Below, in pieces: positions 29,931 to 50,106 of a DNA stretch of 64,000 nt. Every line of letters begins with the position of its first letter. Position 1 is the stretch's first letter. Location: contig VMSW01000007.1 of assembly GCA_013791955.1 (NCBI GenBank), positions 496,001-560,000 of the forward strand. The letters run 5' to 3'. The notes under the pieces are model-generated. The model worked only from the letters and a program-made list of their open reading frames with translations. It did no database searches and was not told the DNA's origin. The stretch is from Propionicimonas sp. (GTDB lineage: Bacteria; Actinomycetota; Actinomycetes; Propionibacteriales; Propionibacteriaceae). The translations under genes were made by a program, and so were the position numbers.

Positions 29931-32256
29931 ACCTCTGGACGCGCGCCCGGTGGTGTTGGCGGTAGCGGTCTGGCTGGGCGGTTGGCTCGGCACCGGCGGC
30001 CAGAGCTCTTGGAGCGGGTTGGGCCTGCCCGGGCCGGCCGGTTGGCCGTGGCTGGGTGCTGCGGCGGTCGCCGCAGCGGTGGCGCTGTCCTGGCGGCTGC
30101 GCTCCCGCCTGCTGCTCGCCGTGGCACTGGCCTTGGGGCTCAGCCTGGGTCTGGCCGGGGCGCGGGTTTGGGCCGCCGACCATGGCGCGCTGGCCGAGCT
30201 GGCCGCCGATGGTGCCGTGGTCCGCATCGAAGCTCGCCTAGCTGAGGGGCACCTGGCGGTGGGTGGCCCGGGAGGGCCAGTTTGGCTGGTCGCGTTGCGG
30301 CTGACCAGCGTGGACGGTCGAGGCCAGGCCTGGCTGGTGGGCGACACCGTCCAGCTCAGCGCCAGTGGTGGGCAGATCGGGTCTTGGCAAGGGCTACCGC
30401 CGGGGACCGCAGTCTCAGGGCTAGTGAAGCTAAGCCCGGCCGAGGATGCCTCTTTCAGCGCCTGGGCCTCGGCCAGGGCGGCGCCAGCGGTGACCGCATC
30501 GCCCGGCCCGCTGGATGCTGGGGTGAACGCGGTGCGGGCGGGGTTGCGGCAGTCAGTGGCTGGGCTACCCGCCGAGCCAGCAGCGCTGGTGCCAGCCTTG
30601 GTGGTGGGCGATACCGAGGGCTTCCCAGTGGAGCTCAGCGAGCAGTTCCGCACCACCGGGCTGACCCACCTGACGGCAGTTTCCGGGGCGAATCTGACCT
30701 TGTTGTTGGCGGCAGTGTTGTTGTTGGCGGCCCGGGTGGGGGTGCTGGGGTGGTGGCGGCGGGGTCTGGCGGTGCTGGTGGTGGCTGGGTTTGTGGTGTT
30801 GTGCCGGGCCGAGCCGAGCGTGTTGCGGGCCGCAGCGATGGGCCTGGTCGGGTTGGCCGCTCTGGGGTGGTCGGGGCCGCGGCAGGGGCTGCGCTATCTG
30901 TCGTGGGCGATCATCGCCTTGGTGCTGATTGATCCGTGGTTGGCGCGCTCGGTTGGGTTTGCACTCTCGGTGCTGGCCAGCGCGGGGATCGTGTTTTGGG
31001 CCCGACGATGGACGCAGGTGCTGGCCGGTTGGATGCCGGGCTGGCTGGCCGAGGCGATCACGGTGCCAGTAGCGGCTCAACTGGCTACCCAGCCGCTGGT
31101 GACCGCGATCTCGGGTCAGGTGAGTGTGGTCGGGTTGGTGGCGAATCTGGTGGCGGCACCCTTGGTGGGGCCGGGCACAGTGCTGGGGTTCGCGGCCGCT
31201 TGGGCCTCGGTGGTGGTCGCACCGGTGGCGGTGGGGTTGGGGTGGGCTGCCGGCGGCTTCGCGCAGGGATTGTGTTGGATCGCCGCGGCGGGGAGTGCGT
31301 TGCCGGGGGCCTCGGCGTCCTGGCCGGTGAGCGCGGTCGGGATCGTGGTGTTACTGACGGCCTGTGTGGTGATCGCGATCGGGCTGCCGATGCTCTTCGC
31401 CCGGCCATGGCTGGTGGGCGTGGTGGGGTTGGCTTTGGTGGTGACGGCGCTGCGGCCGCTGAGTCCGCCGGGCTGGCCGCCCGCAGGTTGGCTGGTGGTC
31501 TCCTGCGATGTGGGTCAGGGCGATGCGACGGTGATTCGCGCCGGGCCGACCGCGGCGATCGTGGTGGACGCCGGGCCGCAACCCAAACTGGTGGATCGTT
31601 GCCTGGATCAGTTGGGCATCACCGAGGTGCCCTGGCTGGTGTTCACCCATCCGCACGCTGATCACTTCGGTGGGGTGGCCGGGGTGTTCACCGGACGGCA
31701 GGTGGCTCGGGTGTTGCTGCCAGCGGTGAACACTGCGGCGGCAGGTTGGCAACAGGTGCGGGCCGCCGCTGGTGGCGTCCCGGTGGTTTGGGCGGCGCCC
31801 GGGTTGGTGGTCTCGGCTGGCACCGCCCGGCTCAGCGTGTTGGCGTTGCAGCAGTTCGTGGCACCGAGCGTGCTGGCAGCAGAATCGGCTGAGGAGAACG
31901 ACTCGTCAGTGGTGTTGCGGGCTGAGATTGGGGGAGTGCGGCTGCTGCTGGCCGGTGATTTACAGGAATCGGGCCAGAGCGCTGCGGTCGCCGCAGCACC
32001 CGATCTGAAAGCTGAGGTGTTGCTCGTCCCTCATCACGGCTCTGCGCATCAGAGCCCGGCCTTTCTTGCCGCAGTAGGGGCAAAGCTGGCGCTGATCAGC
32101 GTCGGCGCCGACAACAGCTATGGCCACCCGGCCGCTCGCACGCTCACTGCCGTCCAGGGCACCGGAGCCCAGCTCTACCGCACCGACCAGAGCGGCGCCA
32201 TCGGGCTGACCCAAGGCAGGGCTGGGCTGATCGTCACTACCCAACGATCCGGCTGA
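29839..32256 (+). CDS. comEC: Competence protein ComEC/Rec2 (DNA uptake channel)
   Basis: The frame is open from ATG 29839 and overlaps comEA by 92 bases. Real translation may begin later, for example TTG 29884 or GTG 29950, just before the first helix (VVLAVAVWLGGWLG). The ~805-residue product has N-terminal helices, the Competence domain (EQFRTTGLTHLTAVSGANLT) and a C-terminal metallo-beta-lactamase domain with CDVGQGDATVI, FTHPHADHFGG and LVPHHGSAHQ. It transports single-stranded DNA across the membrane. In actinobacteria holA normally follows directly; here a 13.4 kb gene lies between. Confidence 0.93.
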   Translation: MESSLQSPSFRRWTVLVPRPTPTLPTASASEPLDARPVVLAVAVWLGGWLGTGGQSSWSGLGLPGPAGWPWLGAAAVAAAVALSWRLRSRLLLAVALALGLSLGLAGARVWAADHGALAELAADGAVVRIEARLAEGHLAVGGPGGPVWLVALRLTSVDGRGQAWLVGDTVQLSASGGQIGSWQGLPPGTAVSGLVKLSPAEDASFSAWASARAAPAVTASPGPLDAGVNAVRAGLRQSVAGLPAEPAALVPALVVGDTEGFPVELSEQFRTTGLTHLTAVSGANLTLLLAAVLLLAARVGVLGWWRRGLAVLVVAGFVVLCRAEPSVLRAAAMGLVGLAALGWSGPRQGLRYLSWAIIALVLIDPWLARSVGFALSVLASAGIVFWARRWTQVLAGWMPGWLAEAITVPVAAQLATQPLVTAISGQVSVVGLVANLVAAPLVGPGTVLGFAAAWASVVVAPVAVGLGWAAGGFAQGLCWIAAAGSALPGASASWPVSAVGIVVLLTACVVIAIGLPMLFARPWLVGVVGLALVVTALRPLSPPGWPPAGWLVVSCDVGQGDATVIRAGPTAAIVVDAGPQPKLVDRCLDQLGITEVPWLVFTHPHADHFGGVAGVFTGRQVARVLLPAVNTAAAGWQQVRAAAGGVPVVWAAPGLVVSAGTARLSVLALQQFVAPSVLAAESAEENDSSVVLRAEIGGVRLLLAGDLQESGQSAAVAAAPDLKAEVLLVPHHGSAHQSPAFLAAVGAKLALISVGADNSYGHPAARTLTAVQGTGAQLYRTDQSGAIGLTQGRAGLIVTTQRSG

Positions 32257-32268
32257 GCACGGCCAGCC

Positions 32269-35200
32269 TCAGCCGGAATCGTCGCGGCGACGGTTGCGGC
32301 GGGTCAGCCAGGCGCCTAGGCCGATGCTGAGCAGACCCAACCCAGGCAAGCCCCAACCGAGCGCGTAGCCGGTGTAGGCCAGATCGTCGGCAGCAGTCCC
32401 GAAATCATTGGTGACGGTGATAGTGAGTGCTTGCAGGGTGCCGGGAAGGTCCGGATCGACATGGACGGCCGTGGCGAACGAATGGTGATCGACGCTCACC
32501 TTTCTGGCGCCATCGGTGGTGGTTTCAGTCGCCCAACAATGCGAGTGCGCGGGTGCGAGCACCGGCTTGCCGGTGGCATCACTCAGAGTGGCCGAGCCAG
32601 CCCCAACGATCGTCACCGTGCCGGAGACCACCGCGGCCCCGCCCTCGGTCTGCTGGCAGGTGATCGCCATCTTGAAAGTGGCCTCAGCGTGCTGAGCGGC
32701 CCCGGAACCGGTGATCTTCTTGGTCACAGTGATGGTGCCAGCCGAGTAGGTGGCGGCGAGGTCGGCCACCACAGTCGTGCTCTGTTCGCCAGTCACCTGC
32801 ACCACGCTGGGGATCGCGTCAGCGCCGTCTGCGGACAGCGCGGTGACCGTACACACCGCGCCGACCGGGATCGGGCCGAGCGGGCCAGCAGTGGTGACGT
32901 CCTGGCCCGGAGTCGGCGCGACCTCCAAGACCGTGTGCAGCACGCTGCCTGAGGCCCCAGCGAGAGTGCAATCGACCTCAACGCTGATCGGCTTGGCGAA
33001 GTCTTCGCGTCCGACGCCGGTGAAGCTCACCTGCACCAGCAGATCGCTGGAGTGGAAGTCATTGGTCACGGTGACCTCGGCCGGATCAGCACCGATGGTG
33101 AAGGTCGGGTTGTCGATACTCACCTGGTCGGACGGCAGCGCCAACGAAGTGGCCGATTCGGTCAGTTCACAGGCGGCCCCGGTGGGCAGCGCGGCGAACT
33201 CGGCGGTGCCCGAGCCGGTAATGGTTCGGGTATCGCCACCCGGAATAGTCACCGGCAGGGTCGCGCCGTCCACCTGCTGGGTGCAGGCGAGTTGCACCGT
33301 GTAGGTGCCGCTGGCATACGGCTCGGCCGTGCTCGCCGTACCGTCGACCAGCACCTGCTTGGTGACCAGCACTCGGCCGGCGTCGAAGGTGTTGGTCAGG
33401 GTGGCGCGGTTGTCGGCTCCCGCCAAGATCTGCACCAGTTGAGCAGCTGAGGCCGCGGTGGCACCGCCGTCAGCAGTCTCGGTGACGCTGCATTCGGCAC
33501 CCACCGGGATCGGTCCCAGCCCGGCACTAATCAAACCGTCGGTCTTTGAGAGGGTCAGCTCGTTGTTGGTGTAGACCACATGCGGCTCGGCCACGCCGTC
33601 CTCGGCGAGCGTGCAGGAGATGGCGAACTTGAACGGATGGACGGCGAAGTCGTCCGCGCCGGCTCCGGCCAGCGCCTTCTCCACGATCAGAGACTCGGTC
33701 TCGAAGTCGTCAATCGCGGTCAGGGTCACCGGCTGGGAGGCGATGATCGCGGCAGCTGACGTCGCAGCACCCGTGACCCCGGTGGAGGTTCGGTAGCTGA
33801 TGCCCTGCGGGGTCAGCGTTGCGGCTCGCTGTGCTAGCGAACAGCTTGCGCCCACCGGGATACCGGTGAACGTGTGGCTACCACGTCCGTTGATCACTGT
33901 CTGGGCGCCGCCGGGAATCGCGACGTCGACCCACGTGCCGTTGATCAGGCGCTCACAGCTCAGTTCGAGGCGGATCTTGCTGCCGGTGTAGGGAGCCTCA
34001 GTGGTGGGAATGCCGTTGAGGGTGAACTCGGTGGTGGCAATCACTGAGCCGAGTAGGTACTCGTTGGTCATCGTGACCGAGTTGTCGGCGGTGTCGGCGA
34101 TGGTGATTTGGGCCGGTTCGGCCGGTATCGAGGCGCCGCCGGTGCCGGTCTCGGTAACGGTGCACTCGGCCCCGACCGGAATCGGGCCCAGCTGGGCACT
34201 GGTCAGCGAGGTGGCCGCCGACAGGCTGACGTCGCTGGCGCTGAACACCTGATGGCTGACTTCGTCGGTGTCGGTTAGGGTGCATTCGACGTCGAAGATC
34301 GCCGCCGAGTCAGCCCAGTCAGCGGCCCCAGCGCCAGTCAGCGCCTTGGTGATGGTCAACAGGCCGGTGTGGAAGTCGTTGGTGATGGTGGCAGTCGACG
34401 TGGCGCCCTGAACAACCGGGTCCGGCTGTTGCACGCTCACCTGGGACGCAGGCAGCGCCAAACTGGTGCCCACCTCGCTCACCAGGCATGAGGCCCCGGT
34501 GGGCAGATCGTCATAGCGCACCGAGCCGGCACCAACTATCGTGCGCACGCCGTCGGCCGGGTCGGTGATCGGTAGCGCATCGCCGGGAATGTCGATCGCC
34601 TGGCTGGTGCCGTTGTAGGACCGGGTGCAAGCCAGCTTCACCTGGTAGGTGCCCGACACCCACGGCTCCGCGGCGGTGCTCACGCCGTCGAGCAACAGTG
34701 CCTTGGTGACCTCAACCGAGCCAACGGTGAAGGTGTTGCGGACGTCCACGCTCTTGGTTGAGGTCGTCACCGTGAAGGTGGCTGCGGGGGAGTAGGTGGT
34801 GCTGGTGGCGCCGGCCGCCTGGGTCTCGCTCACGGTACAGCTGGCGTCGGTGGCCAGGTCGGGCACCGTCCAGGTCTCACCGGGGTTGAGCACGTGGGTG
34901 GCGGTGTAGACCACCGGAGTCACCGCGCTCGCCAAGGTGCAGTTCAGGCTGACCGTGAACGGGCCAGCACCCCAGAGCGCCGCGCCGCTACCCAGGGTGG
35001 TCTTGGAGATCTCCGCCGAACCAACGGTGTAGTTGTTGGTGAAGGTGGCCCGGGTCGCCGTGGCGTCGCCGCTCACCAGAGTGAAGTTTGCCGAAGTCGC
35101 GCCGGTGTTCGTCGCATCAGTGCTGTCGGTTTCGATCCGTACGTCGGTGGTGGCCGCACCCATCGGGTTGGTCTCGGTCACGCTGCAGTCCGCCCCGGTT

Positions 35201-38200
35201 GGCAGGTCGGTGAAGGTCTTGGACGCGCCGGCGGCGAGGGTGAACGTGCGGTCGGCCGCGTTCGTGATTGCCTCAGCGCCCTTGAACTGGCAGCTCGCCG
35301 CAAACGTTGCCGCCTGGTAGCTGATCAGGGTGTCGGTGGCATCCTTCGCCGCTGAGGTCACGGCCTTGGTCACAGTGAACCCGGCTTTGGTGAACTCGTT
35401 GGTGAAACTCGCGGTGGCCGTGTTGGCGGTAGCCCCGTCTTCGGTGATGGTCACCGGCGACGGGCTGGTGACGTTGGTGGCCCCAGCGGAATCAGTCTCG
35501 GTGACCGTGCAGACCGAGGAGAACGGGATCGGGCCGAGGGCGGTCGAATCCAGGCTGGTCTGACCGGTGGTCGGGGTCAGGGTGATGCCGGTACGGCTGA
35601 ACACCTCGCCGAACCCGGACTGGGTGCAGGAAACGTCGAACTCGAACGGACCGGTGCCCCAGGTGGTATCGGCGTTGCCGGTGATGTCCTTGTGGATCAC
35701 CAGTTTGCCGGCCGCGAACTCATTGGTCAGGGTCAGCGGTGCAATGGTGCCATTGCCCACGGTCGTCGAACCGACGCTGGCGGTGGGTTGTGGCTGATCA
35801 GCCGCCGCGCTGGTGCCTTCGGCGACGGTGCAGGTAGCGCCTTGAGGTAGGCCGTCCCATTGAGCGGTGCCAGCCCCGGTGATGGTCTTGGTCGCGTAGC
35901 CGGAGCCCAGGACGGAGTCGAGGTCGAGCGCCTCAGCAGTGCCGTCGCTGTTGAAGTCCTTGATGCACTGCAGCGTCACGGGGTACGAGCCGCTCTGCCA
36001 GGGCTCACCGCTGTTGGCGTTGGTGCCGTTGGCGGTGATGGCCTTGGTCACCTTCACCGAACCGGTGCGGAAGGTGTTGGTGATGTTCACCACCTGGGTG
36101 CTGGTGTCGATTACCGGATTCGGCGCGTCGATCGAGCTGACGTTGGCCCCAGCAGCGTTGGTCTCGGTCACCGTGCAGCTCGCGTCGGTGGGTAGATCGG
36201 TGATCTCCCAGAAGTTGTTGGGACTGTCTTTGGTGAGTTGGTGGGTGTTGGCGTAAACCAGGGCGTTGCCGCTGTGATCGGTGGCATTGGCCAAGCTGCA
36301 AACGGCCGCCACCGTGAAGGTTCCGGTGCCCCAATCGTCGGCTCCGGGTCCGCTGACGAGCTTGGTGATCTGCAGCGAGCCGGTGGCGTAGGTGTTAGTG
36401 AATTCCAGCACGCTGGCTGAGACCCCACCAGCCACCAGAGTGAATTGCTTTGACGTGCCGGAGGTGACGGTCTGGCTGTGGCCGGACTGATCGGTGGTGA
36501 TTGCGGTGCTGGCCGCGGACAGGGCGTCGGTCTCGGTCACGTCACAGATCGCGCCAGCTGGCAGTTCATCGAAAGTCTTGGATTGGCCGTCGGTCAGCGT
36601 GAAGCTTTGCTGCTCAGTGCTGAGGAACTCATCGGCCCCGATCTTGCAGGACGCGGTGAATGGGTAGGCGCCGGTGTATTTGATCAGTTCGCCGGACGCG
36701 TCCCGCGCGGTCGTGGAAACCGTCTTTTGGACGGTGAAGCCAGCGAAGTCGAAGGTATTGGTGAAGGCGGCCTCCGCCACACCGCCGGAGGTCGCTGCTG
36801 CCAGGGTGACCGTCGCCGAGGCCGGGGTGATGCTGGTTGCCCAAGCGGAGTTGGTCTCGGTCACGGTGCAGACCGACCCCACCGGCACCGGACCGATGCC
36901 GGTCGCGGTCAGCGAGATGTCCTTGTTCAGCGTGGTGTCAGCCTCAAACACCGGGTCGGCGAAACCTTCCAGCGTGCAGCTGGTGTGGAAGTCGAAGTCG
37001 CCACTTGACCAAGCGGCGGCAGCCGGGCCGTCCAAGGTTTTGACGATCCTGATGCTGCCGTAGCCGAAGTCGTTGGTGACGGTGATCGCCGCCGGGCTGA
37101 GGTAGGTCGAGTCGTTGGGCACGTTCACCGCGGCGGTCACGGTCACCGTTGGCAGCGGCTGGGTCGGGGTGCCCGCCGGGTAGGTGATGGCGCCGGTGTC
37201 TTCGGTAGCCGCACAGTTGGCCCCCTGCGGGAGCCCCGTCCAGGTGGCGGTGCCGTTGCCGGTGATGGTCTTGGTGGCATTAGCCCCAAGGTTCACCGCG
37301 TCGGCCGAGCCGTCGCCGTCCAGATCCTTGGTGCAGGTGAGGGTCACCGGGTAGCCGCCGCTGAGCCAGGGTTCGGCGGTGGTCGTCAGGACGCCGTTGA
37401 CCTTGAGCTGCTTGGTCACCCGCACCGCACCGGTGTTGTAGGTGTTGGTGGCTCTGGCGGCTCGGATGGTCGCGCCGGTGTTGACCGTCACATTGGTGGC
37501 AGCGAATGCGTCCGCGCCGTGATGGTTGGGCTCGGTGACGGTACAGCTGGCGCCAGTGGGCAGATTGGTGATGGTGCGCGGGCCCAGATCAGCGGCAGAG
37601 GTGAAGGTGAAGTCCTTGTTGTAGACCGTTGTCGGTGAGAACGCGTTGCTGGTGCAGGTGAGGTGGACGGTGAACGGATAGGTGGCCCAGCTGGTGCCGG
37701 TGCCGGCCAGCACCTTGGTGAGGGTGATGGTCCCGATCATGTAGGTGTTGGTGAACGCGACGACGTTGACTCCAGTGGCCAAGGCGAGGGTCTTGGTCAC
37801 CCCGGAGACGGCCGAGCCGGTGCTGCCGTTTTGGGTCACCTTGTAGGTGATGGCGTTGGCGCCCCAGGCGGCGGTCTCGGTGACCGTACAACTCGCCTTG
37901 GCCGGCAGATTGTTGAAGGTGACATCCGGGCCCCAAACGCCACCGCCCTGATCGCTGAAGTTCAGTGTCTGGGTGGTCAGGGTGGTGACGCCGTTGAAGC
38001 TCGCACACGTCGCGGTGATGGTGTAGGTCCTGTTGAAGACCAGTGGGTTGTTGTCCTGGTCGCGGACATCGGCGGTCACCACAGCTTTGGAGACCGTCAG
38101 ACTGGCGTAGTCGAACTGATTGGTGGCCGTAATGGTCAAGGCCTGCGGCACACTCGGGTCGGCTTGGGCAGTGACCACGACGCCAGTGGCGAAGGTGCTG

Positions 38201-41200
38201 TGATCCACGCTGGCCACCGTCGCATTGCCAGTGCCGGTCTCGGTGGCCCAGCAGTGCGTACCGACTGGGAAGAGCTGGTCGCTGCCGCTGGATTGCAGGA
38301 CGATGCTCTGGCCGCCCTGCAGCGACACGTTGCCGTCGTAGCTGTAGGGTCCGGCCGCTGCCAAGCCGCACTTCACCGCCAGGGTGAAGGTGGCGCCGGT
38401 GGCCCAAGCGGCCGCGGCGGCATCGCCGGAGAGCACCTTGGCGATCGTCACCTTGCCTGCCGAGAAGGCATTGGTGAAGTCGATCGGCGTGACGTTGTTG
38501 GTGGCGCCATTTTCGGTAACGATCACTGGCAGGGCGGTCGGGGTGGCGTCCGCGCCGCCGGTAGCGGTCTCGGTGGCGGTGCACTCAGCACCGAAGGGGA
38601 TCGGGCCGATTTCGGCGGACTTCATCGACGGGGTGGTCACCGTGATGCCAGTTCGGCTGAAGACCGTTGACCCACCAAGGGTGCAGCTCACCGAGAAGGT
38701 GGCGGTGGTGAAGAAGTTGGTGCCAGCACCGGTGAGGGCCTTGTTGATGACCAGCTTGCCGGCGGTGTAGTTGTTGGTAACCGTGAGGGTGCCGGTGCCG
38801 CCAGCGGGGACGGTGACCGGGTCGGTGACGGTAGCTCCAGCCAGCGGTTGGGCGGCCCCGACGCCGGTGATAGCCGCGGTGTCCTCGGTGGCTGAACAAG
38901 TAGCCCCGGTCGGCAGGCCCGTCCAGGTGTGGCTCCAGGCGCCCGACTTAAGGGTTTGGGTGGCGCCAGCAACGGTGAGGGTCTTGGTGGTTCCGTCCAC
39001 CACCCGGGTGCAGGCCAGCGTCACCGGGTAGTTGCCGTCACCCCACGGCGCGGCCGTGGTGTCGGTGCCATTGGCTTGCACCTTCTTGGTCACGGTCACC
39101 GAACCAGTGGTGAAGGTGTTGGTGATCCCGACCAGCGCCGGGCTGCCCGGGTTGCTGCCAACTGTGAAGGTGGCACCGCTGATCGAGTGCGAGTTGGCCC
39201 CGCCGGTTTTGGTCTCAGTCACGGTGCAGGACGCGCCGGTGGGCAAAGACCCAACAGTCACGGTCGGGGCCGCTTTGGAGAGCGGCAGCAGCCCGTCGTA
39301 GACGGTCGCATTGGTGGTGTCGGGATGGGTGCAGACCAGGTGTGCCTCGAAGCTCTCATCGCCCCATAGCCCGGTGGCGTCCACGATGGTCTTGGAGATC
39401 TCGGTCGCGCCGACCGTGAACCGGTTGGTGTAGGTGAGCTCAGTGGCGCTGGCGTCCCCGGCAACCAGCGTGAAAGCTGCGGTATCGCTGGACACGTTAT
39501 TGATGATCGTGGTTGCACCCTGGACGGCGGTGATGGTGGTCTCGGCCGCCGAGGCGGCATAGGTTTCCGCAACCGTGCAGTCAGCGCCAGCGGGCAGGCC
39601 GGTGAACTGCTGGCTCTCGCCGTCGCGCAGGGTGAACGTCCGTTCCCCTTCCGGCACGACCTCGGTGCCGTTGAGCTGGCACGAGGCGGTGTAGGTGAAG
39701 TCCTTGAAGGCCACGTCCGCGCCGCTGGCGTCCTTGGCCACGGGGCCGGTGACGTCCTTGATCACGGTGAAGCCAGCGTTGTCGTAGGTGTTGGTGACGC
39801 CCAGAAGCTGGGTCGATGCCCCCGCCCAGGGGTGAGCGATGTTGGCGACCCCGGTGTAGCTGGTGTTGGCGGTCACGGTGCTCGGGCTGGTCGCCGCAGT
39901 GGCTCCTTGGGCGGAGTCTTCGGTGAAGGAGCAGGACGCGAACAGCGGCAATGTGCTTGAGCCGTCGGCGTTGTAGTTCGCGGTGGCGCCGGTGCCAGAA
40001 CCTTGCGGCCCGGCCAGGCTCACCATGCTGGTGTCGGTGGTGGTTGCCGCGCCGTTGAGGGTGACGTCCCTGCCCAGCGAGGTGCACGACAGGGTGCCGG
40101 TGTAGCTGGTGGGTAAGGCCGCGGTCCAAGCAGCACCCACGGGCACCGCGACGGTCTTGGCCAGATTGATCCGTCCGCTAGCGATCGCCACGCCCACCTT
40201 GCGAGGCTCGGTGATCAGCGAAGCGCGAGCCGGGAACTCCGCAGTGTCCACGGTCTGGGCAACGTAGGCGGTGCGGGAACCGATCGCTGCGGAGTTCCAG
40301 GCCACCGGCTCCACCGTGGTGGCGTCGGCAACGTCGGACTGAGCTGGAGTGATGGTGTCGAAAGTCAGCTGGAACTGGCCGCCGGGCACGATGCCTTCGG
40401 TGGCGTCAGGGAAGCTCACCGTGACTTTGATAGCCCTAGCGGTCGCCAGGGTGGCGGCCGAGGTGGCATCGGTGAACTCAGTCCAGTTCAGGTTGCAGTC
40501 CGAGGCCCCACCTGGGGTGGTGTCGTTGAGGATGTCGCTCTTGTTGCAGGCTGCGGTGGCAGCTGAGGTGAGGAAGTAGGTGTGCACTTCGTTGGCGGCC
40601 GCGCCGTCGGGCAGGGTCACTTGCACGTTGCCGGCGAAGATCGGCGTGAAGCGGGACTTGCGTGCGGTGCCAACAGTCACACCGGTGTCGCCCACTGCGG
40701 GCAGGACGTCGATGGCGCTGATGGTGTTCGCCGCGACGTTGCCGCCGTTGGCCAAGGTGAGCCGCCAGCGCTCGGTGCCGCCGGGCCGGGTGATCGGGGT
40801 GCATGGCGGGGCGTAGTAGCCGTCCGTGCCCGGAGCGGCACACAGGTCGGCGGTGGTGTTACCGACCGAGATCACGCCCAGGTCGTTGTAGTTGGCATCG
40901 CCAACCGAGGCGGACGGGTCGCCGGCTGCGATGCCCTTGACCGACTTGGCCACCGTGATGGGGGTTGAGGCTGCGGCGACGATGCGGGTGGTTGCGGTGC
41001 AGGTGGACACATCGGTCAAGGCGGTGCCGGCGATCGCATCGGTGGTGAAGTCGCACTTCTCGAAGTCGCGGTCAGCGGTGACTGAGACCGAGTTGGAAAC
41101 CGAAGTGCCAGCCTCCAGATGATCGCGGAACCGCAGGTTGGCGGTGATCAGTAGCACCGATCCCGAGGTGAGCACGAAACCGTTGGGCACAGTGATGCTC

Positions 41201-44200
41201 AAATTGCCGGTGGTGGTGTCCAGTGAGGCCCCGAAGCCGGGCACAGCGGTGCCGTTGACGGTGTAGGTGAACACGCTGGACACGTCAGCTGGGATCAGCC
41301 CGGACTGGTCGAAGCCGCCGATGTTCACCGTCCCCACCTGATCGGTCAGTGCCAATCCGGTGATGTTCCAAGCGCCGGTGTTGGTGACCTTGAGCCGGAA
41401 CGGAATGGTCTCGTTCAGGTCGTAGCGCGGCAGTTCGGAGCTGGCACTGGCTTTGCCCGGTGTCTTCTCCACCTTGATCTGGTTCACCCGATGGAGTAGC
41501 TGGGTGGTCGAAGTGGTGGTGGCGGTGGCGGTGTAGGGGGCGGCATTGAACAGCCAGCCAGCCGTTCCGTCCACCGAAACCTGGTTGGTGATGGTGCCCT
41601 GGGTGGTCTCGCCGGGAGCCGCAGCCATGCCCGGACGGGTGCTCGGCACGGGGGTAGTGGCATTGCCGTTGGTGCCATAGACGAGGTAGGTACGCCGGTT
41701 CATCGCCAGGTTGACGCTGAGCGCGGGGGTTGACGGACGCTCCCACTGCACGACGGCGCCGCCGATATAACTGCGAGCTTCAACCCGGAGGCCGCGAACC
41801 TGATCGGCAGTGATGCCTGCTGGCAGCGTGAGGGTGACTACGCCGTTGACGGCATCGGTCCAGCTGCCTTGGTGCCAGCACGGATCCAGGTCGGTGGTGC
41901 CGTTGCAGGTGTAGCTCAAGGTGGTGCCGTCGTAGGCGAAAGCTACGCCGGTGAGCACCGACAGCTTCAGCTGGTTGATCGGCTCTGGAACGTTCACCGT
42001 CGGGATGCTGGCCAGATCGAAAGCGTTCCAGAAAGTGGGGGTCTGGTCGGTCAGGGCCAGCAACTTGGTCCGGGCCGTGCCGGAGGGCTGGCCAGCGAGG
42101 GTGACGGTGTAGTTGCTGGTCTGGTCTTCATAGCGCGAGCTCGGGGAGATCGCTTTGCCAGCAGTGACGTCGTAGGTGGGCTGGACGATGCCGAAAGAGT
42201 CGGTGTCGTCAGCCGTCGGCTGGTCGCAATCTTCGCCGCCGGTGCACCCCATCCCGCCGGGGCTGACGATCGTGGCCCTAGCGGAGTTGGTGATCTGCTC
42301 AGTCGGGACGGTGGGGGCCCCGTCGGAGCGCAGATTGGCTCGCAGTTGATAGGTCAAGTTCAAGGTGGCGGTCGAGCCGCTGGCGATCAGGGCCTTGGTC
42401 GAATCGCCGAGGTTGGCCACCGCGCCGTAGTGGACGCTGACCCCGATCACGTCGCCCAACTGCGCCGGGCTGCGGCCTTGGGCCTCAGCCAGGGTGATGC
42501 CGGCTTCGGTGGTGGTCGTGGTGCCGTCGAAGTGGACCAAATCGACGGTTACCTCGCTGGTGCTCAGATCGGCGGGGATTTCCACCGCCTCGATCTGGTA
42601 CAGGTTCAGGTAGTCATACGCGCCCAGGCCGGAGACCGCCGGCGATGGGTCGGCGATCAGGATCTCCGGCACGAAGGTGGCGGTGTTATTGCGAGCGGTC
42701 AAGGTGGAGGTAATCAGCGGGTAGTCGCTCTGGCTGTTGGTCGCGGCCTGGGGCAGGCCCAGCCGATCCTGATCGAAGGTCTTCGACAGCGAGATGTTGA
42801 GCGGACGGTCATAGATGATCAGGCTCGCCGAGGCGGAGTCGGCGAAGCTGGTGGTGCCGGCTTCGGTCGGTGTGGTCAGGGTGCCGACGACGTCAGCGCG
42901 GTTGCTGATCACGCCTTTGGAACCGGTGTTGTAGGCGTAGTCGTGGCTGGTGCCCAGGACGTATTCGGTCGGAGCACTGCGCAGGGTGTTGCGCAGGCGC
43001 ATGGTGAGCAGGATTCCCCGACTTGGCGTGGCCGAGCCGCTGACGGCGATCGCCCCGGTGTCGCTGGCGCTACCGGCTTCGATGGTGAGCCGGACGGCCA
43101 AGGTGGCAGCGCGCTCGCCGGCGGTGAGGGTGTAGCCGGGGAACTCGCCGTCGCAGGCGGCAGCACTTGGGCAGGCTTGGCTGGTGACATCGGTCCAGCC
43201 TGAACCGGTGTAGAGCTCGACTTTGGCGATTTTGTCGTTCGCGATCAGCGGGTCGATGGCCGGGGTGATCGGCTCGATGGCCACCAGGTCAAAAGCGTCA
43301 TAGACCGAAGTGGCGATCGAGCCGCCGTCGGTACCACGCGGATCATCGGTGACCTGGAGCTGCGACATACTCAAGCCGTCGGTGTCCCAGTCGATCCGGG
43401 CGGTGCGGGTATCGCCGGAAAGCGCGTAGACCTGGTATTCGTTTGCCAGTCCGCTGCCGGTGACCCAGTTCTTGGCGATCAGATCGGGAGCGCCACCGCC
43501 GGTGCCATCTGTCGTCTTGAGCTCAACCGAATCGCTGGCTGTCTTGGTGACTAGTGGCTGGATCGCCACCGGGTTGCTGACCTCAGTGGTGACCTGATTG
43601 GCAATGGTGGTCGGGGCGGTGCTGCTGGTCGGGATCAGAGCGTCGCTGCGGAGGTAGCGGCGCAGGGCCACTTCGAACCGCGGTGCGACATTGAAGCCGA
43701 CGGGCAGCACTTCGCCGGCGTTCAGCGGGGTGAACTTGAACCTGATTCCAGCGATTTGGTCAGGGTTGCTGGGGGTATAGGACCAGTCCTGACTCGGCCC
43801 GGTTTTGGTGGTGAGGGTCTGCCAGGTCGACCCGTCGTAGTACTCGAGGTTGAGTTGGGCGTCGGCCGGAATGTCAGTGGCGATGATCCGCCGTAGATCA
43901 AAGGAGTCCCAGAAAGGGTAGGTGTTGTCGGTGAGCGTCAGGTATTCCGAGCCGATGGTGGACTCCTGGGAGACGCTGCCGGTGAGCGACACCGTCATCG
44001 CTGAACCGGGGGCGGCCCAGAGGCTCTCGCGGGACAGCGTCTTGGAGGCCCCGGTGCGCACCCGCTGCGGCAGCAGGGTCACGGTGTCGGCGGCTGTGCT
44101 GGAGCCGACGGTCGTGCTGGCATCGGTGACCGTGGTCTTGACCGTGTTAGTGGCCGAAACCCCGGCTTCCTGGCTGACTGCGCCGGCGGTCACCGTGAAC

Positions 44201-45657
44201 GCCAGTTTGGCCGAGGCGCCGGAGATGATCGCGTCGTTGGCTCCGGTGAAGACCACGCTGAACGACTTGACGGTCTTGCCATCGGCCGGTGCTGGCATGG
44301 TGTCGATGGTGCTGGTCGAGAGCACCTCGGCGGTGTCATCGCTGTAAAAGTAGGTGATCTGCGCCGTGGTGGCGTTGTGCGGCCAGGTCACCCGCTGGTC
44401 GGTGGCGCCGCTGGTAACGAAGCCGGTGAACTCCAGACCCTGATCGACCAGGTTCGCCTCCCCGGCGGCCGGCTCGTCGATCTGCATGGTCGAGACCGGC
44501 ATGATCCCGTTGGTCGCATCAATCGTGACCACCGTGGTGGCGCCGGCTACCAAGGAGCTGCCGGTAATCGTCTTGGCGGTGGTCACCTCGACCGGGCTCA
44601 TCTTGAAAGTGACTGAGCCGGTGGCTTGATCGTCACTGGATTCGCCGCCGTAGCTGACGATGGTGCTGGCCTGGTTGGCAATCGTCCTGGTATCGCCGGA
44701 GCTGAGATCGGCAAAGGCGTCGCTGCGGGTTTCGGTAGTGATGACAATGTGGGCGGCGTCACCGGCCGGTACCAGTCCGCCGTCCTTGGTGAAGGTGAAC
44801 CGCATCCCCCGAATCAGGCTCGGGTCGGCTGGCAGCAGGGTGTCGGGATCAGCCGGGACGGCCACCGTCCCGCTGTCTTGCCAGTCGCTGCCGTCGAACC
44901 ATTCGAAGCGGACGCGGTCGGCACCTTCGGGAGCGGTGAGCGTGTCGATCCCGGTGACGGCCAGGTAGGTGAACGGGGTTGAACTGGTCGGGTTGGTCGG
45001 TTCGGCGATCTGCACCGAGTCAACGCTGACGTTGGCGGAGTTGGCGCCGGTGAGGTTGTAGGTGACGACCCGTCCGGATAGGGCTGGCTGGGTGCCGGTG
45101 GGACTGACTGCCTTGGTGGTCACGGCCACGAGTACTGGCGGAATGCTGAGCTTCATCGCGATTGAATCGGTCACCGTGTCGGCGTTGTCGGCGGTGATCA
45201 CCACGCCTGCCGAAACGGTGTCGCCGTCGAGGTTGCCGGAGGCATCGCTGGGGACGATCACCTTGGCGGTAAGCACCACCAACTGGCCAGCGGTCAGGCC
45301 CTGGCCGTCGAAGGTGACCCGCAGCTTTCCGCCAGTGACCACGCCGGTGGCCACCGCAGGACTGACGGTTAGCGGGTCGCTGAGAAACTCAATCGGCTCG
45401 GGTAGATCCAGGTCGAGGACGGTATTGGTGCAGATGCCGGTATCAGGGCTGCTGCATTGCAGGTTGATTGTCAGGCTGAAGAAATCCCCGGCGGGGATCG
45501 TGGTCACTTCGCCTTGGTGGTTGGTGACGTAGCTCTCGACGGTGATCTCACCATCGTTGTCAGCAGCAGCGGCGAGGCTCGGGAGGCCAAGCACTACCAG
45601 GAGGAAGCTGACCAGTACAGCTAACAGGGCCCTGGGTGTGCGGGTGGTGTAGTGCAC
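32269..45657 (-). CDS. Giant multi-domain surface adhesin-like protein with LAYTG sorting signal
   Basis: A single uninterrupted frame encodes 4462 residues. Start GTG 45657 has GAAGGCGAG eight bases upstream. Residues 1-31 are a signal peptide (LLAVLVSFLLVVLGLPSLAA). Residues ~35-1900 contain about six ~200-residue modules marked by FW(D/N)(S/A)FDL-type segments and YYDGSTW-like strands, then DUF11-like segments. Residues ~1960-4415 are 22 domains of ~110 residues (DUF5979-like). Each begins GxxxVTKxVxG, has a cysteine in the first half and LPTGASCTVTE or GPIPVGAEC in the second, and ends xxxTNxF. The C-terminus is LAYTG (4426-4430), a hydrophobic helix and RRNRRRDD, a cell-wall sorting signal of the LAxTG type used by class E sortases. 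The paired cysteines suggest one disulfide per domain. It probably forms a long wall-attached stalk for adhesion; that role is inferred. No sortase gene lies in the window. Confidence 0.93.
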   Translation of the reverse strand: MHYTTRTPRALLAVLVSFLLVVLGLPSLAAAADNDGEITVESYVTNHQGEVTTIPAGDFFSLTINLQCSSPDTGICTNTVLDLDLPEPIEFLSDPLTVSPAVATGVVTGGKLRVTFDGQGLTAGQLVVLTAKVIVPSDASGNLDGDTVSAGVVITADNADTVTDSIAMKLSIPPVLVAVTTKAVSPTGTQPALSGRVVTYNLTGANSANVSVDSVQIAEPTNPTSSTPFTYLAVTGIDTLTAPEGADRVRFEWFDGSDWQDSGTVAVPADPDTLLPADPSLIRGMRFTFTKDGGLVPAGDAAHIVITTETRSDAFADLSSGDTRTIANQASTIVSYGGESSDDQATGSVTFKMSPVEVTTAKTITGSSLVAGATTVVTIDATNGIMPVSTMQIDEPAAGEANLVDQGLEFTGFVTSGATDQRVTWPHNATTAQITYFYSDDTAEVLSTSTIDTMPAPADGKTVKSFSVVFTGANDAIISGASAKLAFTVTAGAVSQEAGVSATNTVKTTVTDASTTVGSSTAADTVTLLPQRVRTGASKTLSRESLWAAPGSAMTVSLTGSVSQESTIGSEYLTLTDNTYPFWDSFDLRRIIATDIPADAQLNLEYYDGSTWQTLTTKTGPSQDWSYTPSNPDQIAGIRFKFTPLNAGEVLPVGFNVAPRFEVALRRYLRSDALIPTSSTAPTTIANQVTTEVSNPVAIQPLVTKTASDSVELKTTDGTGGGAPDLIAKNWVTGSGLANEYQVYALSGDTRTARIDWDTDGLSMSQLQVTDDPRGTDGGSIATSVYDAFDLVAIEPITPAIDPLIANDKIAKVELYTGSGWTDVTSQACPSAAACDGEFPGYTLTAGERAATLAVRLTIEAGSASDTGAIAVSGSATPSRGILLTMRLRNTLRSAPTEYVLGTSHDYAYNTGSKGVISNRADVVGTLTTPTEAGTTSFADSASASLIIYDRPLNISLSKTFDQDRLGLPQAATNSQSDYPLITSTLTARNNTATFVPEILIADPSPAVSGLGAYDYLNLYQIEAVEIPADLSTSEVTVDLVHFDGTTTTTEAGITLAEAQGRSPAQLGDVIGVSVHYGAVANLGDSTKALIASGSTATLNLTYQLRANLRSDGAPTVPTEQITNSARATIVSPGGMGCTGGEDCDQPTADDTDSFGIVQPTYDVTAGKAISPSSRYEDQTSNYTVTLAGQPSGTARTKLLALTDQTPTFWNAFDLASIPTVNVPEPINQLKLSVLTGVAFAYDGTTLSYTCNGTTDLDPCWHQGSWTDAVNGVVTLTLPAGITADQVRGLRVEARSYIGGAVVQWERPSTPALSVNLAMNRRTYLVYGTNGNATTPVPSTRPGMAAAPGETTQGTITNQVSVDGTAGWLFNAAPYTATATTTSTTQLLHRVNQIKVEKTPGKASASSELPRYDLNETIPFRLKVTNTGAWNITGLALTDQVGTVNIGGFDQSGLIPADVSSVFTYTVNGTAVPGFGASLDTTTGNLSITVPNGFVLTSGSVLLITANLRFRDHLEAGTSVSNSVSVTADRDFEKCDFTTDAIAGTALTDVSTCTATTRIVAAASTPITVAKSVKGIAAGDPSASVGDANYNDLGVISVGNTTADLCAAPGTDGYYAPPCTPITRPGGTERWRLTLANGGNVAANTISAIDVLPAVGDTGVTVGTARKSRFTPIFAGNVQVTLPDGAAANEVHTYFLTSAATAACNKSDILNDTTPGGASDCNLNWTEFTDATSAATLATARAIKVTVSFPDATEGIVPGGQFQLTFDTITPAQSDVADATTVEPVAWNSAAIGSRTAYVAQTVDTAEFPARASLITEPRKVGVAIASGRINLAKTVAVPVGAAWTAALPTSYTGTLSCTSLGRDVTLNGAATTTDTSMVSLAGPQGSGTGATANYNADGSSTLPLFASCSFTEDSAQGATAATSPSTVTANTSYTGVANIAHPWAGASTQLLGVTNTYDNAGFTVIKDVTGPVAKDASGADVAFKDFTYTASCQLNGTEVVPEGERTFTLRDGESQQFTGLPAGADCTVAETYAASAAETTITAVQGATTIINNVSSDTAAFTLVAGDASATELTYTNRFTVGATEISKTIVDATGLWGDESFEAHLVCTHPDTTNATVYDGLLPLSKAAPTVTVGSLPTGASCTVTETKTGGANSHSISGATFTVGSNPGSPALVGITNTFTTGSVTVTKKVQANGTDTTAAPWGDGNYPVTLACTRVVDGTTKTLTVAGATQTLKSGAWSHTWTGLPTGATCSATEDTAAITGVGAAQPLAGATVTDPVTVPAGGTGTLTVTNNYTAGKLVINKALTGAGTNFFTTATFSVSCTLGGSTVFSRTGITVTTPSMKSAEIGPIPFGAECTATETATGGADATPTALPVIVTENGATNNVTPIDFTNAFSAGKVTIAKVLSGDAAAAAWATGATFTLAVKCGLAAAGPYSYDGNVSLQGGQSIVLQSSGSDQLFPVGTHCWATETGTGNATVASVDHSTFATGVVVTAQADPSVPQALTITATNQFDYASLTVSKAVVTADVRDQDNNPLVFNRTYTITATCASFNGVTTLTTQTLNFSDQGGGVWGPDVTFNNLPAKASCTVTETAAWGANAITYKVTQNGSTGSAVSGVTKTLALATGVNVVAFTNTYMIGTITLTKVLAGTGTSWATYPFTVHLTCTSNAFSPTTVYNKDFTFTSAADLGPRTITNLPTGASCTVTEPNHHGADAFAATNVTVNTGATIRAARATNTYNTGAVRVTKQLKVNGVLTTTAEPWLSGGYPVTLTCTKDLDGDGSADAVNLGANATKTITGNGTATWTGLPQGANCAATEDTGAITYPAGTPTQPLPTVTVTAAVNVPNDSTYLSPAAITVTNDFGYGSIRIVKTLDGPAAAAWSSGDFDFHTSCTLEGFADPVFEADTTLNKDISLTATGIGPVPVGSVCTVTETNSAWATSITPASATVTLAAATSGGVAEAAFTNTFDFAGFTVQKTVSTTARDASGELIKYTGAYPFTASCKIGADEFLSTEQQSFTLTDGQSKTFDELPAGAICDVTETDALSAASTAITTDQSGHSQTVTSGTSKQFTLVAGGVSASVLEFTNTYATGSLQITKLVSGPGADDWGTGTFTVAAVCSLANATDHSGNALVYANTHQLTKDSPNNFWEITDLPTDASCTVTETNAAGANVSSIDAPNPVIDTSTQVVNITNTFRTGSVKVTKAITANGTNANSGEPWQSGSYPVTLQCIKDFNSDGTAEALDLDSVLGSGYATKTITGAGTAQWDGLPQGATCTVAEGTSAAADQPQPTASVGSTTVGNGTIAPLTLTNEFAAGKLVIHKDITGNADTTWGTGPFEFDVSCTQSGFGEVFSRTGITLTPTTGQTSLDSTALGPIPFSSVCTVTETDSAGATNVTSPSPVTITEDGATANTATASFTNEFTKAGFTVTKAVTSAAKDATDTLISYQAATFAASCQFKGAEAITNAADRTFTLAAGASKTFTDLPTGADCSVTETNPMGAATTDVRIETDSTDATNTGATSANFTLVSGDATATRATFTNNYTVGSAEISKTTLGSGAALWGAGPFTVSLNCTLASAVTPVVYTATHVLNPGETWTVPDLATDASCTVSETQAAGATSTTYSPAATFTVTTSTKSVDVRNTFTVGSVEVTKALLLDGVSTAAEPWVSGTYQVKLACTRSYNGTSQAIDIPGDALPITDPADGVRTIVGAGSVRYDDLPTGASCLVSEVGTSLALPASQVSVQQPDPVVQGATSTATITNDFHTGLLTITKALTGAGAADWADSAAIFDVECTLTDTDEVSHQVFSASDVSLSAATSLTSAQLGPIPVGAECTVTETGTGGASIPAEPAQITIADTADNSVTMTNEYLLGSVIATTEFTLNGIPTTEAPYTGSKIRLELSCERLINGTWVDVAIPGGAQTVINGRGSHTFTGIPVGASCSLAQRAATLTPQGISYRTSTGVTGAATSAAAIIASQPVTLTAIDDFETESLIVEKALAGAGADDFAVHPFKFAISCTLAEDGVAEPHVVYTNNELTLSKTDGLISAGLGPIPVGAECSVTETADGGATAASAAQLVQILAGADNRATLTNTFDAGRVLVTKQVLVDGTASTAEPYASGTYTVQLACTQQVDGATLPVTIPGGDTRTITGSGTAEFAALPTGAACELTESATSLALPSDQVSIDNPTFTIGADPAEVTVTNDFHSSDLLVQVSFTGVGREDFAKPISVEVDCTLAGASGSVLHTVLEVAPTPGQDVTTAGPLGPIPVGAVCTVTALSADGADAIPSVVQVTGEQSTTVVADLAATYSAGTITVTKKITGSGAAQHAEATFKMAITCQQTEGGAAVVSGTVTIVGAGSATLSDATGKPVLAPAHSHCWATETTTDGARKVSVDHHSFATAVHVDPDLPGTLQALTITVTNDFGTAADDLAYTGYALGWGLPGLGLLSIGLGAWLTRRNRRRDDSG
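32400..34050 (-). repeat. Domain blocks 5-7 of the giant protein: C-D, C-D, E
   Basis: Domains start near 34050 (C, VIATTEFTLNG), 33693 (D, LIVEKALAGAG), 33384 (C, VLVTKQVLVDG), 33052 (D, LLVQVSFTGVG) and 32744 (E, ITVTKKITGSG). The last shares HCWATETTTDG and VDHHSFATAV with the E domain of block 1. So the array closes with the same domain type that ended its first block, just before the LAYTG signal. Confidence 0.7.
34051..35386 (-). repeat. Domain block 4 of the giant protein: A-B-C-D
   Basis: Domains start near 35386 (A, AGFTVTKAV), 35024 (B, AEISKTTLG), 34725 (C, VEVTKALLLDG) and 34369 (D, LTITKALTGAG). The A and B domains here resemble those of block 1 (AEISK versus TEISK; ASCQ with ADCSVTE). 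Confidence 0.7.
35387..36748 (-). repeat. Domain block 3 of the giant protein: A-B-C-D
   Basis: Domains start near 36748 (A, AGFTVQKTV), 36383 (B, LQITKLVSG), 36064 (C, VKVTKAITANG) and 35715 (D, LVIHKDITG). The block length, about 1.36 kb, equals that of blocks 2 and 4, as expected from whole-block duplication. Confidence 0.7.
36749..38108 (-). repeat. Domain block 2 of the giant protein: A-B-C-D
   Basis: Domains start near 38108 (A, ASLTVSKAV), 37738 (B, ITLTKVLAG), 37432 (C, VRVTKQLKVNG) and 37061 (D, IRIVKTLDGP). This is the most diverged ABCD block; the A and B assignments rest on length and inner motifs (VFNRTYTITATC; SWATYPFTVHLTC). Confidence 0.6.
38109..39782 (-). repeat. Domain block 1 of the giant protein: A-B-C-D-E
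   Basis: Five ~110-residue domains start near 39780 (A, AGFTVIKDV), 39415 (B, ATEISKTIV), 39108 (C, VTVTKKVQANG), 38763 (D, LVINKALTGAG) and 38463 (E, VTIAKVLSGD). Subtypes are my own: A has a long first half with D.....F..YTASC; C has an NG...AxPW insert; D has GPIPFGAEC; E has HCWATETGTG and VDHSTFATGV. Boundaries are approximate. Confidence 0.7.
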
Positions 45658-46300: not shown

Positions 46301-46317
46301 CTGAAGTGGCGGGAGTG

Positions 46318-47331
46318 ATGTCGGCCCGGACTGGCATGCTTAGCAGCGTGCAAAACCAGAGCCGCTTCGGCGCCGTCCTGTTAGTTACCGGGCCGGAGTC
46401 GCTGCTGGCCGAGCGAGCCGTGGGTGACTTCCTGCAACAGGCTTTGGCTGAGCGCCCCGAGGCCGCGGTTGTGCGCGTGGAGGCCATCGATTTGGACGCA
46501 GGCGGCCTGGCCGAGGCGGCCGGAGCATCGCTGTTTTCGACGGCCACCATCGCGATCGTGAACGGGCTGGCCGACCTGCCCGCCGATCTCAACTCGCAGC
46601 TGCTCAGCTTGGCTGCCGACCCGGGTGAGGATCTCGCGTTGGCGCTGGTCCACGGTGGGGGAGTGAAGGGCAAAGCTTTGTTGGACGGGCTGAAGAAGCT
46701 GCGTCCCGAAGTCATTGACTGCCCCTCGATCAAGCCCTGGGAGCTGGGTCAGTTCGTGGTGGCCGAAACCAGGCGGATGGGCGGCAAAGCCACTCCAGCG
46801 GTGGCCGAGGCATTGGTGCAGGCGGTGGGCACCAATACCCGCGCGTTAGCGGGGGCCGTTCGCCAATTGCTGGATGATTCACCCGATCAGGTGCTGACTG
46901 AGGCGACCATCCACCGCTACTTCGCTGGCCGGGCCGAGGTGACCAGTTTCGCGGTCGCCGACGATGCGCTCAACGGTCGGGCCGAGCAGGCCCTAGGCAA
47001 GTTGCGCTGGGCCATCGTGACCGGGGTGGCTCCGGTGTTGGTCACCAGTGCCTTGTCGTCCAATCTGCGCAGCCTGGGCAAGTATCTGGACGGCCGCGAT
47101 TCCCGAATGCGTGACGCTGATCTGGCCCGCAATATTGGCGTCCCACCGTGGAAACTAAAAGACCTGGCCAGGCTCTCGCGCGACTGGACCACGCCAGCGG
47201 TGGCCAAGGCCATTCAGGCGGTGGCGGTAGCTGACGCGCAGATCAAGGGCGCTGGCAGCGACCCGGGGTTCGCCCTGGAGCAAGTGGTGCTGGCCGTGAT
47301 CCAGCAACGCCGGAACGCGTCGCGCCGCTAG
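46318..47331 (+). CDS. holA: DNA polymerase III subunit delta
   Basis: The ~337-residue protein matches the delta clamp-loader subunit: VLLVTGPESLLAERAVGDFL at the N-terminus, KPWELGQFVVAETRRMGGKA in the middle and IGVPPWKLKDLARLSRDWT near the end. It opens the sliding clamp with gamma/tau and delta-prime. The frame is open from GTG 46306; ATG 46318 or 46336 are likelier starts. It is normally the gene after comEC, and here it is separated from it by the giant gene. Confidence 0.92.
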   Translation: MSARTGMLSSVQNQSRFGAVLLVTGPESLLAERAVGDFLQQALAERPEAAVVRVEAIDLDAGGLAEAAGASLFSTATIAIVNGLADLPADLNSQLLSLAADPGEDLALALVHGGGVKGKALLDGLKKLRPEVIDCPSIKPWELGQFVVAETRRMGGKATPAVAEALVQAVGTNTRALAGAVRQLLDDSPDQVLTEATIHRYFAGRAEVTSFAVADDALNGRAEQALGKLRWAIVTGVAPVLVTSALSSNLRSLGKYLDGRDSRMRDADLARNIGVPPWKLKDLARLSRDWTTPAVAKAIQAVAVADAQIKGAGSDPGFALEQVVLAVIQQRRNASRR

Positions 47332-49849: not shown

Positions 49850-50106
49850 GGCAGTCCTCCTTGAGAGGCATGCGCTAGAGGGGAATCGAGGGGTGCGCAC
49901 GCCGCGACCGGGCCAGTCAATCAGCTTGGGTAAAATTGCCCCAGTCCCCACCAGAGTGACAAATGTGGCGACCATCCCGGGGCTTATTCCACACGTGATG
50001 GGATTACTTGAAATCGCTGTATCCCCGGCTTGGTGCAGCCACCGGGATCAGGGACTGTGTCGCACGTCCTTGGCGGCGAGGCTGCACAATATGGTTGCGG
50101 CAACGC

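Follow-up and report, generated by a model that had tools for sequence, protein, structure and literature searches.

The window (the whole stretch of 64,000 nucleotides from Propionicimonas sp. that was analysed; GC 65%, in a genome of 3.1 Mb on 11 contigs) contained a gene for a giant surface protein on its minus strand (32269..45657), a single open frame of 4462 aa (454 kDa, pI 4.35). As judged from the translation alone, the N-terminus resembled a signal peptide (residues 1-32, 45562..45657, minus strand, GTG start). A Pfam profile search matched the frame to DUF5979 (PF19407) with 712.5 bits against a cut-off of 25, and to DUF7601 with 136.4 bits. Six-frame searching of the genome recovered 23 DUF5979 matches, 22 of them above the cut-off and all within the giant frame. 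The gene was flanked by comEC (29839-32256, Pfam Competence) and by a holA-like gene (46306-47331, DNA_pol3_delta_C), which was adjoined on the minus strand (47372-49975) by the gene of an 867-aa protein with six He_PIG Ig-like stretches; an 82% identical piece of the latter was present in the genome G007.

In 14 of the 30 genomes of the genus, matches to comEC and holA were at most 100 bp apart. The giant gene sat at the junction between them in the window and in G004 and G014, and G025 had other material there, about 9.6 kb long and including a frame of 2254 aa. The giant gene of G002 was located on a different contig from the junction. In a near relative (L066, at the end of contig C41 of G007) the giant gene was interrupted by the contig end, its first 68 residues and holA each being 97% identical.

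The N-terminal half of the protein (residues 1-1831, minus strand 40165..45657) appeared to consist of Ig-like domains. Residues 30-1190 looked Ig-like in a structural model, with matching rows mostly over the first 326 residues of the model. Nine lysines of this half (182, 362, 539, 729, 959, 1168, 1398, 1571 and 1820) were invariant in seven aligned relatives. At the opposite end, a LAYTG sorting motif (residues 4426-4430, minus strand 32368..32382) preceded a hydrophobic stretch and a tail of arginines. LAXTG is the motif used by class E sortases (PMC5148588), and the features of their substrates, LAXTG, a hydrophobic stretch and a basic tail, could be read from the sequence. The genome had two PF04203 sortases, one of which was of class E (239.9 bits against a cut-off of 160), and both were below the class C cut-off of 160 (71.7 and 27.9 bits). 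A sortase-built pilus was rejected, as no sortase in the genome passed the class C cut-off, and a single wall-anchored chain would be likelier than a polymerised pilus. The protein combined a repeat stalk with a wall-anchor motif, as a fibrillar adhesin would. A known defence system was also rejected (PADLOC, 0 families).

The stalk was formed by 23 DUF5979 domains (d01-d23), a divergent type x followed by ABCDE-ABCD-ABCD-ABCD-CD-CD-E. The original prediction listed 22 domains of five subtypes in the latter order, and all of them were recovered, as d02-d23, with d01 as an extra type in front. On the minus strand, domain 1 (type x, the head-proximal neck, residues 1832-1962, 39772..40164) was succeeded by block 1 (domains 2-6, A-B-C-D-E, 38101..39771), three A-B-C-D blocks, namely block 2 (domains 7-10, 36739..38100), block 3 (domains 11-14, 35380..36738) and block 4 (domains 15-18, 34048..35379), two C-D pairs (domains 19-20, 33373..34047, and 21-22, 32734..33372) and the wall-proximal domain 23 of type E (32392..32733). 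As predicted, blocks 2, 3 and 4 were of similar length (1362, 1359 and 1332 bp) and type E stood both at the end of the first block and at the end of the stalk. The structure of one block was predicted for block 1, A to E, and this five-domain AlphaFold2 model was CnaB-like (pLDDT 93.2, pTM 0.70). A profile made from 15 of the 23 stalk domains matched 5u5o best in the PDB (E 4.8e-6), and also 4bug (E 0.0054). DUF5979 has been classed among the CnaB-like isopeptide families (PMC12617251).

A tree of d02-d23 grouped the domains by type and across blocks, as the original prediction had anticipated, and clustering by position was rejected. Support was 95/92 for A, 99/97 for C, 86/86 for D and 98/95 for E; type B fell on one side of a branch in this window-only tree but was unsupported (33/0). 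Each of four position-based blocks was rejected as a clade (AU p 1.5e-7 to 1e-151). Both this tree and the joint ortholog tree described below were built from the domains that follow domain 1 (x). Mean identity was 40% within types (43 pairs, range 28-51%) and 32% between types (188 pairs). The types also differed in mean length (A 124, B 106, C 115, D 106 and E 116 residues) and in local features: an insert after the Lys strand in C, a GPIP turn in D and an HCWATET strand in E. The 22-letter string contained only 7 kinds of neighbour pairs, against a shuffle mean of 14.9, and none of 200,000 shuffles reached 7. Type HMMs read the stalk as xABCDEABCDABCDABCDCDCDE, which is a consistency check only, since they were built from the window's own labelled domains. 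No exact repeat of at least 18 bp was found in the window stalk, so the copies are old.

DUF5979 matches were found in 18 of 60 genomes searched (own included), and three same-genus genomes, G002, G014 and G004, had long orthologous frames of 5966, 6058 and 5536 aa, whose N-terminal halves were, in that order, 53%, 55% and 78% identical to that of the window. The window type HMMs read the stalks of G002 and G014, of 36 domains each, as xABCDEABCDABCDABCDABCDEABCDABCDCDCDE, and the 32-domain stalk of G004, with one weak extra match in its N-terminal half dropped, as xABCDEABCDABCDABCDABCDEABCDABCDE. In a joint tree of 123 domains each of the five types remained one group, with support of 100 for A and E, 99 for C, 86 for B and 76 for D. 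Numbering the stalk positions of the orthologs as slots, the window domains paired in this tree with slots 1-8, an uncertain C-D pair, slots 15-20 and slots 30-36; for domains 4, 11, 12, 15 and 16 the placement was clear in only two of the three orthologs. Block 2 thus corresponded to slots 7-8 followed by a C (slot 9 or 13) and a D (slot 10, 14 or 18) of uncertain slot, and block 3 to slots 15-18, by nearest rows in two or three of three orthologs. Block 4 probably held a deletion junction, running from slots 19-20 through a C to slot 31, with domains 15-16 placed less clearly by G002. The type HMMs and the joint tree assigned domains 19-20 to slots 32-33 and domains 21-22 to slots 34-35, and the trees assigned domain 23 to slot 36.

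By this comparison the window lacked about 13 slots, four within 9-14 and nine more (21-29). All three orthologs have slots 21-29, including G004, the closest relative of the window, so that loss in the window is the simpler reading; the window copy seems to be mainly a shortened one, having lost its slots in phase. G004 itself lacked slots 30-33, which the window has, and its C at that point fitted slot 34 better than slot 30. In domain 17, the C of block 4, the first two segments matched slots 21 and 30 alike (85/141 and 78/141, Fisher p 0.47) and the third was closer to slot 30 (36/74) than to slot 21 (15/70; Fisher p 0.0009); the p value is a guide only, since domain 17 was chosen for its ambiguity and seven domains in all underwent such slot comparisons. 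A crossover within a C domain could leave this pattern, and the B|C border is a possible junction as well. One deletion junction thus probably lay in or beside a C domain. In both resolved losses, B and then C stood at the junction. The proposal that the stalk grew by duplication of a four-domain block and then of a CD pair was therefore upheld in one respect only: block duplication stands as the source of the array, but the change in the window was mainly shrinkage, given orthologs with 36, 36 and 32 domains. The CD pair as the last growth step was abandoned, because the type HMMs and the joint tree recovered the same CD-CD run in both G002 and G014. Being common to the window and the two 36-domain orthologs, the run is not a last local step and predates the species split.

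Each of the 23 window stalk domains had exactly two cysteines (46 in all), and the pair occupied the same aligned places in all 127 domains of the four orthologs, window included. A Lys-Glu-Asn triad was kept in 21 of the 23 window domains. The exceptions were domain 19 (slot 32, type C, minus strand 33694..34047), with T/Q/D at the triad positions, and domain 22 (slot 35, type D, minus strand 32734..33045), with V/A/A, and both kept their cysteine pair. Across the four orthologs the triad was complete in 116 of 127 domains as aligned, or in 118 when the Lys just upstream of two late domain starts (slot 9 of G014 and G004) was counted. Seven of the nine remaining exceptions were at slots 32 and 35, and two were slots 24 and 28 of G014. 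Slot 32 read T/Q/D, L/Q/D and V/Q/D in the orthologs having it (3/3), and slot 35 read V/A/A, W/Q/N, A/P/A and V/T/A (4/4); Lys and Glu were gone in all seven domains and Asn was kept in one, while both cysteines remained. Slot 35 is not simply decaying, as its identity between the window and G004 (74%) was inside the range of the 17 slot pairs compared (40-80%). Isopeptide and disulfide bonds in the stalk are predicted from these residues.

Beyond the genus, a match to the N-terminal half was present in 24 of the 198 family genomes, own genome included. Ten of the matches were nearly full-length in one piece, and the partial ones were split frames, contig ends or weak matches to the last 200-250 residues of the half. 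Named genomes contributed 75 loci with the same N-terminal half, all Actinomycetota by title except L114, a short Verrucomicrobiales MAG contig that is perhaps misbinned. In two loci (L064 in G153 and L067 in G067) the N-terminal half was split over two or three frames, by decay or sequencing error. Stalk domains were obtained from 62 of the 75 loci; in five of the other 13 the frame ran off the sequence end, and the remaining eight included three weak relatives (24-26% identity). Counting low-margin labels, the best-scoring type at position 2 was A in 62 of 62 stalks, and positions 2-3 were AB in all 60 stalks of at least three domains. Two of these stalks, L071 and L074, belong to the genomes named here G004 and G002, which had supplied part of the domains behind the HMMs; excluding both left 60 of 60 and 58 of 58, the latter all outside the genus. 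When the domains at positions 1, 2 and 3 were combined with 21 window domains (all except 19 and 22) in a FastTree, each position formed a single group, with window x (94), A (99) and B (95), respectively. By this grouping x-A-B is an old neck, and the order is older than the CD-CD run.

The statement that a periodic order of distinct subtypes is unusual for a surface stalk proved incomplete, since such orders also occurred in relatives from Agromyces, Leucobacter, Mumia and Nocardioides and in other DUF5979 arrays of the same-genus genome G008. With lower case for low-margin labels, the stalk of Agromyces agglutinans read xABDEEABDEeABDEb, that of A. italicus xABDEEABDEc, Leucobacter xABDEeABDEc, A. 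fucosus xABDEe, Mumia xABCdABC and Nocardioides xABCBABC. The Nakamurella stalk read BABbDE by best match, its first domain lying near x in the tree. A tree of eight of the 62 stalks and two of the four orthologs kept A, C, D and the x-labelled rows single (95-98, with 96 for the x group) and required 4 changes for B and 3 for E. The A copies of the window's genus formed a group (94) apart from a group of Agromyces, Leucobacter, Mumia and Nocardioides copies (92), so the multiplication of blocks took place independently. In A. agglutinans, the first two blocks shared 81% DNA identity, so this amplification is younger than that of the window. The short stalks of A. fucosus and Nakamurella ended with an E-like domain, which might explain the place of E at block ends if a block is a copy of an entire old stalk, although this fits part of the family only.

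Nearest window types of the last domains of 55 stalks were C (33), E (11), B (10) and A (1); judged by these matches, the distal types are not universal among relatives. In a FastTree of 448 rows, which took in untruncated stalks of at least five domains and the window domains other than 19 and 22, positions 1, 2 and 3 needed 5, 9 and 18 changes and window B needed 3, because A and B copies also sit deeper in stalks and resolution was low. Alignment A3 took in 40 of the 58 usable relatives. Two DUF5979 arrays of six domains in G008 (L043 on C75 and L045 on C24) had a period of two: domains two places apart (lag 2) had an identity of 0.63, and adjacent ones (lag 1) 0.35-0.37. Two loci with the same N-terminal half (L059 in G146 and L060 in G155) had more uniform terminal repeats, of eight domains, with lag-1 identities of 0.45 and 0.48.

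Among 442 domains of 60 other stalks, the cysteine pair was aligned in 439 and the triad in 394. Most of the triad misses were gaps from cut domain ends or inserts, and position 5 of the Cellulosimicrobium and Isoptericola stalks was unreadable owing to an insert at its start. Of 26 exceptions re-read one by one, some look real. In the fifth stalk domains of Mumia and Nocardioides (L073 and L097) Glu was replaced (S, Q). Nine stalks had an ABAB.ABC-like 11-domain pattern, and in four of them (L081, L091, L112 and L121) the final domain, next to the wall, had Asn instead of Lys. Putative lock residues have thus disappeared from fixed positions repeatedly, in two cases near the wall; only in the window's genus did two slots show a consistent loss of both Lys and Glu.

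We consider it fairly probable that the locus encodes a wall-fixed, fibrillar adhesin-like chain with a locked CnaB-like stalk, positional domain types and in-phase copying, and this is our best explanation. The protein would be a single-chain fibrillar surface protein, probably an adhesin, that is exported and fixed to the wall by the class E sortase through LAYTG. Its N-terminal half would be a row of CnaA/CLIPPER-like Ig domains and its C-terminal half a CnaB-like DUF5979 stalk, in which most domains are predicted to be locked by a Glu-catalysed Lys-Asn isopeptide bond and one disulfide. The types may represent positional identities of an old short stalk, x-A-B and then distal types. Longer stalks would have arisen by copying of domain runs, and later changes would have swapped like for like, an exchange that keeps phase and with it the order. 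Slots 32 and 35, devoid of isopeptide residues and kept in place, are probably less rigid points. The rod of locked domains would hold the N-terminal half off the wall and, at titin's figure of about 4 nm per domain (PMC7427331), would be some 90 to 145 nm long, with 23 domains here and up to 36 in the orthologs.

One rival reading, plausible if short of probable, is that the order is history only. Exchange of like for like would preserve phase by itself, the code would need no function of its own, and only the length of the stalk may matter. Phase-keeping does follow from like-with-like exchange, relatives manage with other blocks (ABDEE', ABC) or with the near-uniform repeats of L059 and L060, and neighbouring domains of the window showed no significant drop in similarity compared with shuffled order (p 0.23). 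However, the types keep their identity over several families, and no long DNA repeats are left in the window stalk that could drive exchange now. The triad losses of slots 32 and 35 are also kept in every ortholog having these slots, and together with the identity of slot 35 they mean that position matters at least there.

A second possibility, which we regard as doubtful, is that alternating types keep neighbours dissimilar and so avoid strand swaps while the chain folds after export. No two neighbours were of the same type in the four order strings, identity peaked at lag 4 (0.37-0.45) against 0.31-0.33 for neighbours, and in G002 and G014 adjacent domains resembled each other less than expected by chance (p 0.0035 and p 0.003, respectively). 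For titin, sequence divergence of adjacent domains has been proposed to suppress misfolded states that persist (PMC4660218). The effect was not significant in the window or in G004 (p 0.09), however, and near-uniform repeats do occur in relatives. Alternating roles of the types as spacer, bend or binding face, as suggested in the original prediction, seem rather unlikely; the types do differ in length and sequence, but a pTM of 0.70 leaves the orientation of the domains uncertain. Repeat arrays often collapse in assembly, and the slots missing from the window might be collapsed repeats, but this is highly improbable given that the stalk has no exact repeat of at least 18 bp and that the frame is open and in phase.

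The natural series of stalks, from few to 36 domains on one kind of N-terminal half, makes the origin and upkeep of ordered repeats readable, and the question why some giant stalks are non-uniform becomes testable. Slots 32 and 35 are candidate natural controls for isopeptide mechanics, because Cys is kept and Lys and Glu are missing in every ortholog having them. A more speculative proposal, to which we give little weight, is that the stalk is a counterpart of the titin super-repeat. The order would be selected through specific type-type interfaces and set the geometry of a period of four, the unlocked wall-near domains would act as extensible fuses in an inextensible rod, and length would be tuned in whole phase units by exchange of like domains. 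In the D-zone and C-zone of titin, distinct domains likewise follow a fixed order, in units of 7 and 11 domains (PMC7427331). Titin is nevertheless a eukaryotic muscle protein of Ig and Fn domains, and the likeness is one of working, with no kinship claimed.

Among bacterial proteins, Periscope proteins share with the window protein a wall-anchored, rod-like stalk of varying length (PMC9704523). Their key feature is highly identical tandem repeats (PMC9704523), whereas same-type domains of the window averaged only 40% identity. Membership of this class was rejected, given the same-type range of 28-51% and the lack of any exact 18-bp repeat. The Pfam DUF5979 family has the domain, the Lys-Glu-Asn triad and the CnaB-like fold in common with the window stalk (PMC12617251). 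The subtypes and their order are features of the window stalk that the accessible text of that source does not mention for DUF5979. A literature search, thin on subscription journals, returned no account of isopeptide subtypes that follow a fixed order with conserved phase.

Giant isopeptide-stalk adhesins are a known kind, and the closest in print is the 7651-aa adhesin of Mobiluncus mulieris (PMC10619420; PDB 5u5o and 5u6f). It shares with the window protein the single-chain, giant, wall-anchored form and an actinobacterial host, and the two cysteines of 5u5o align with those of the window stalk domains. Its isopeptide domain 47I has a Lys-Asn isopeptide bond and also a disulfide, the latter detected by mass spectrometry, its growth by domain duplication is presumed, and an insertion of 21 isopeptide domains is reported (PMC10619420). 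The Mobiluncus adhesin mixes ester-bond and isopeptide domains, whereas the HxDxxDxxQ ester motif was absent from all 4462 residues of the window protein, and a mixed adhesin of that type was rejected. The two differ further in that the former has a putative thioester tip and the latter no known tip domain, and in their anchors, LPxTG in the former and LAYTG in the latter. Ordered isopeptide subtypes with conserved phase, for which the accessible text on the Mobiluncus adhesin describes no equivalent (PMC10619420), distinguish the window protein.
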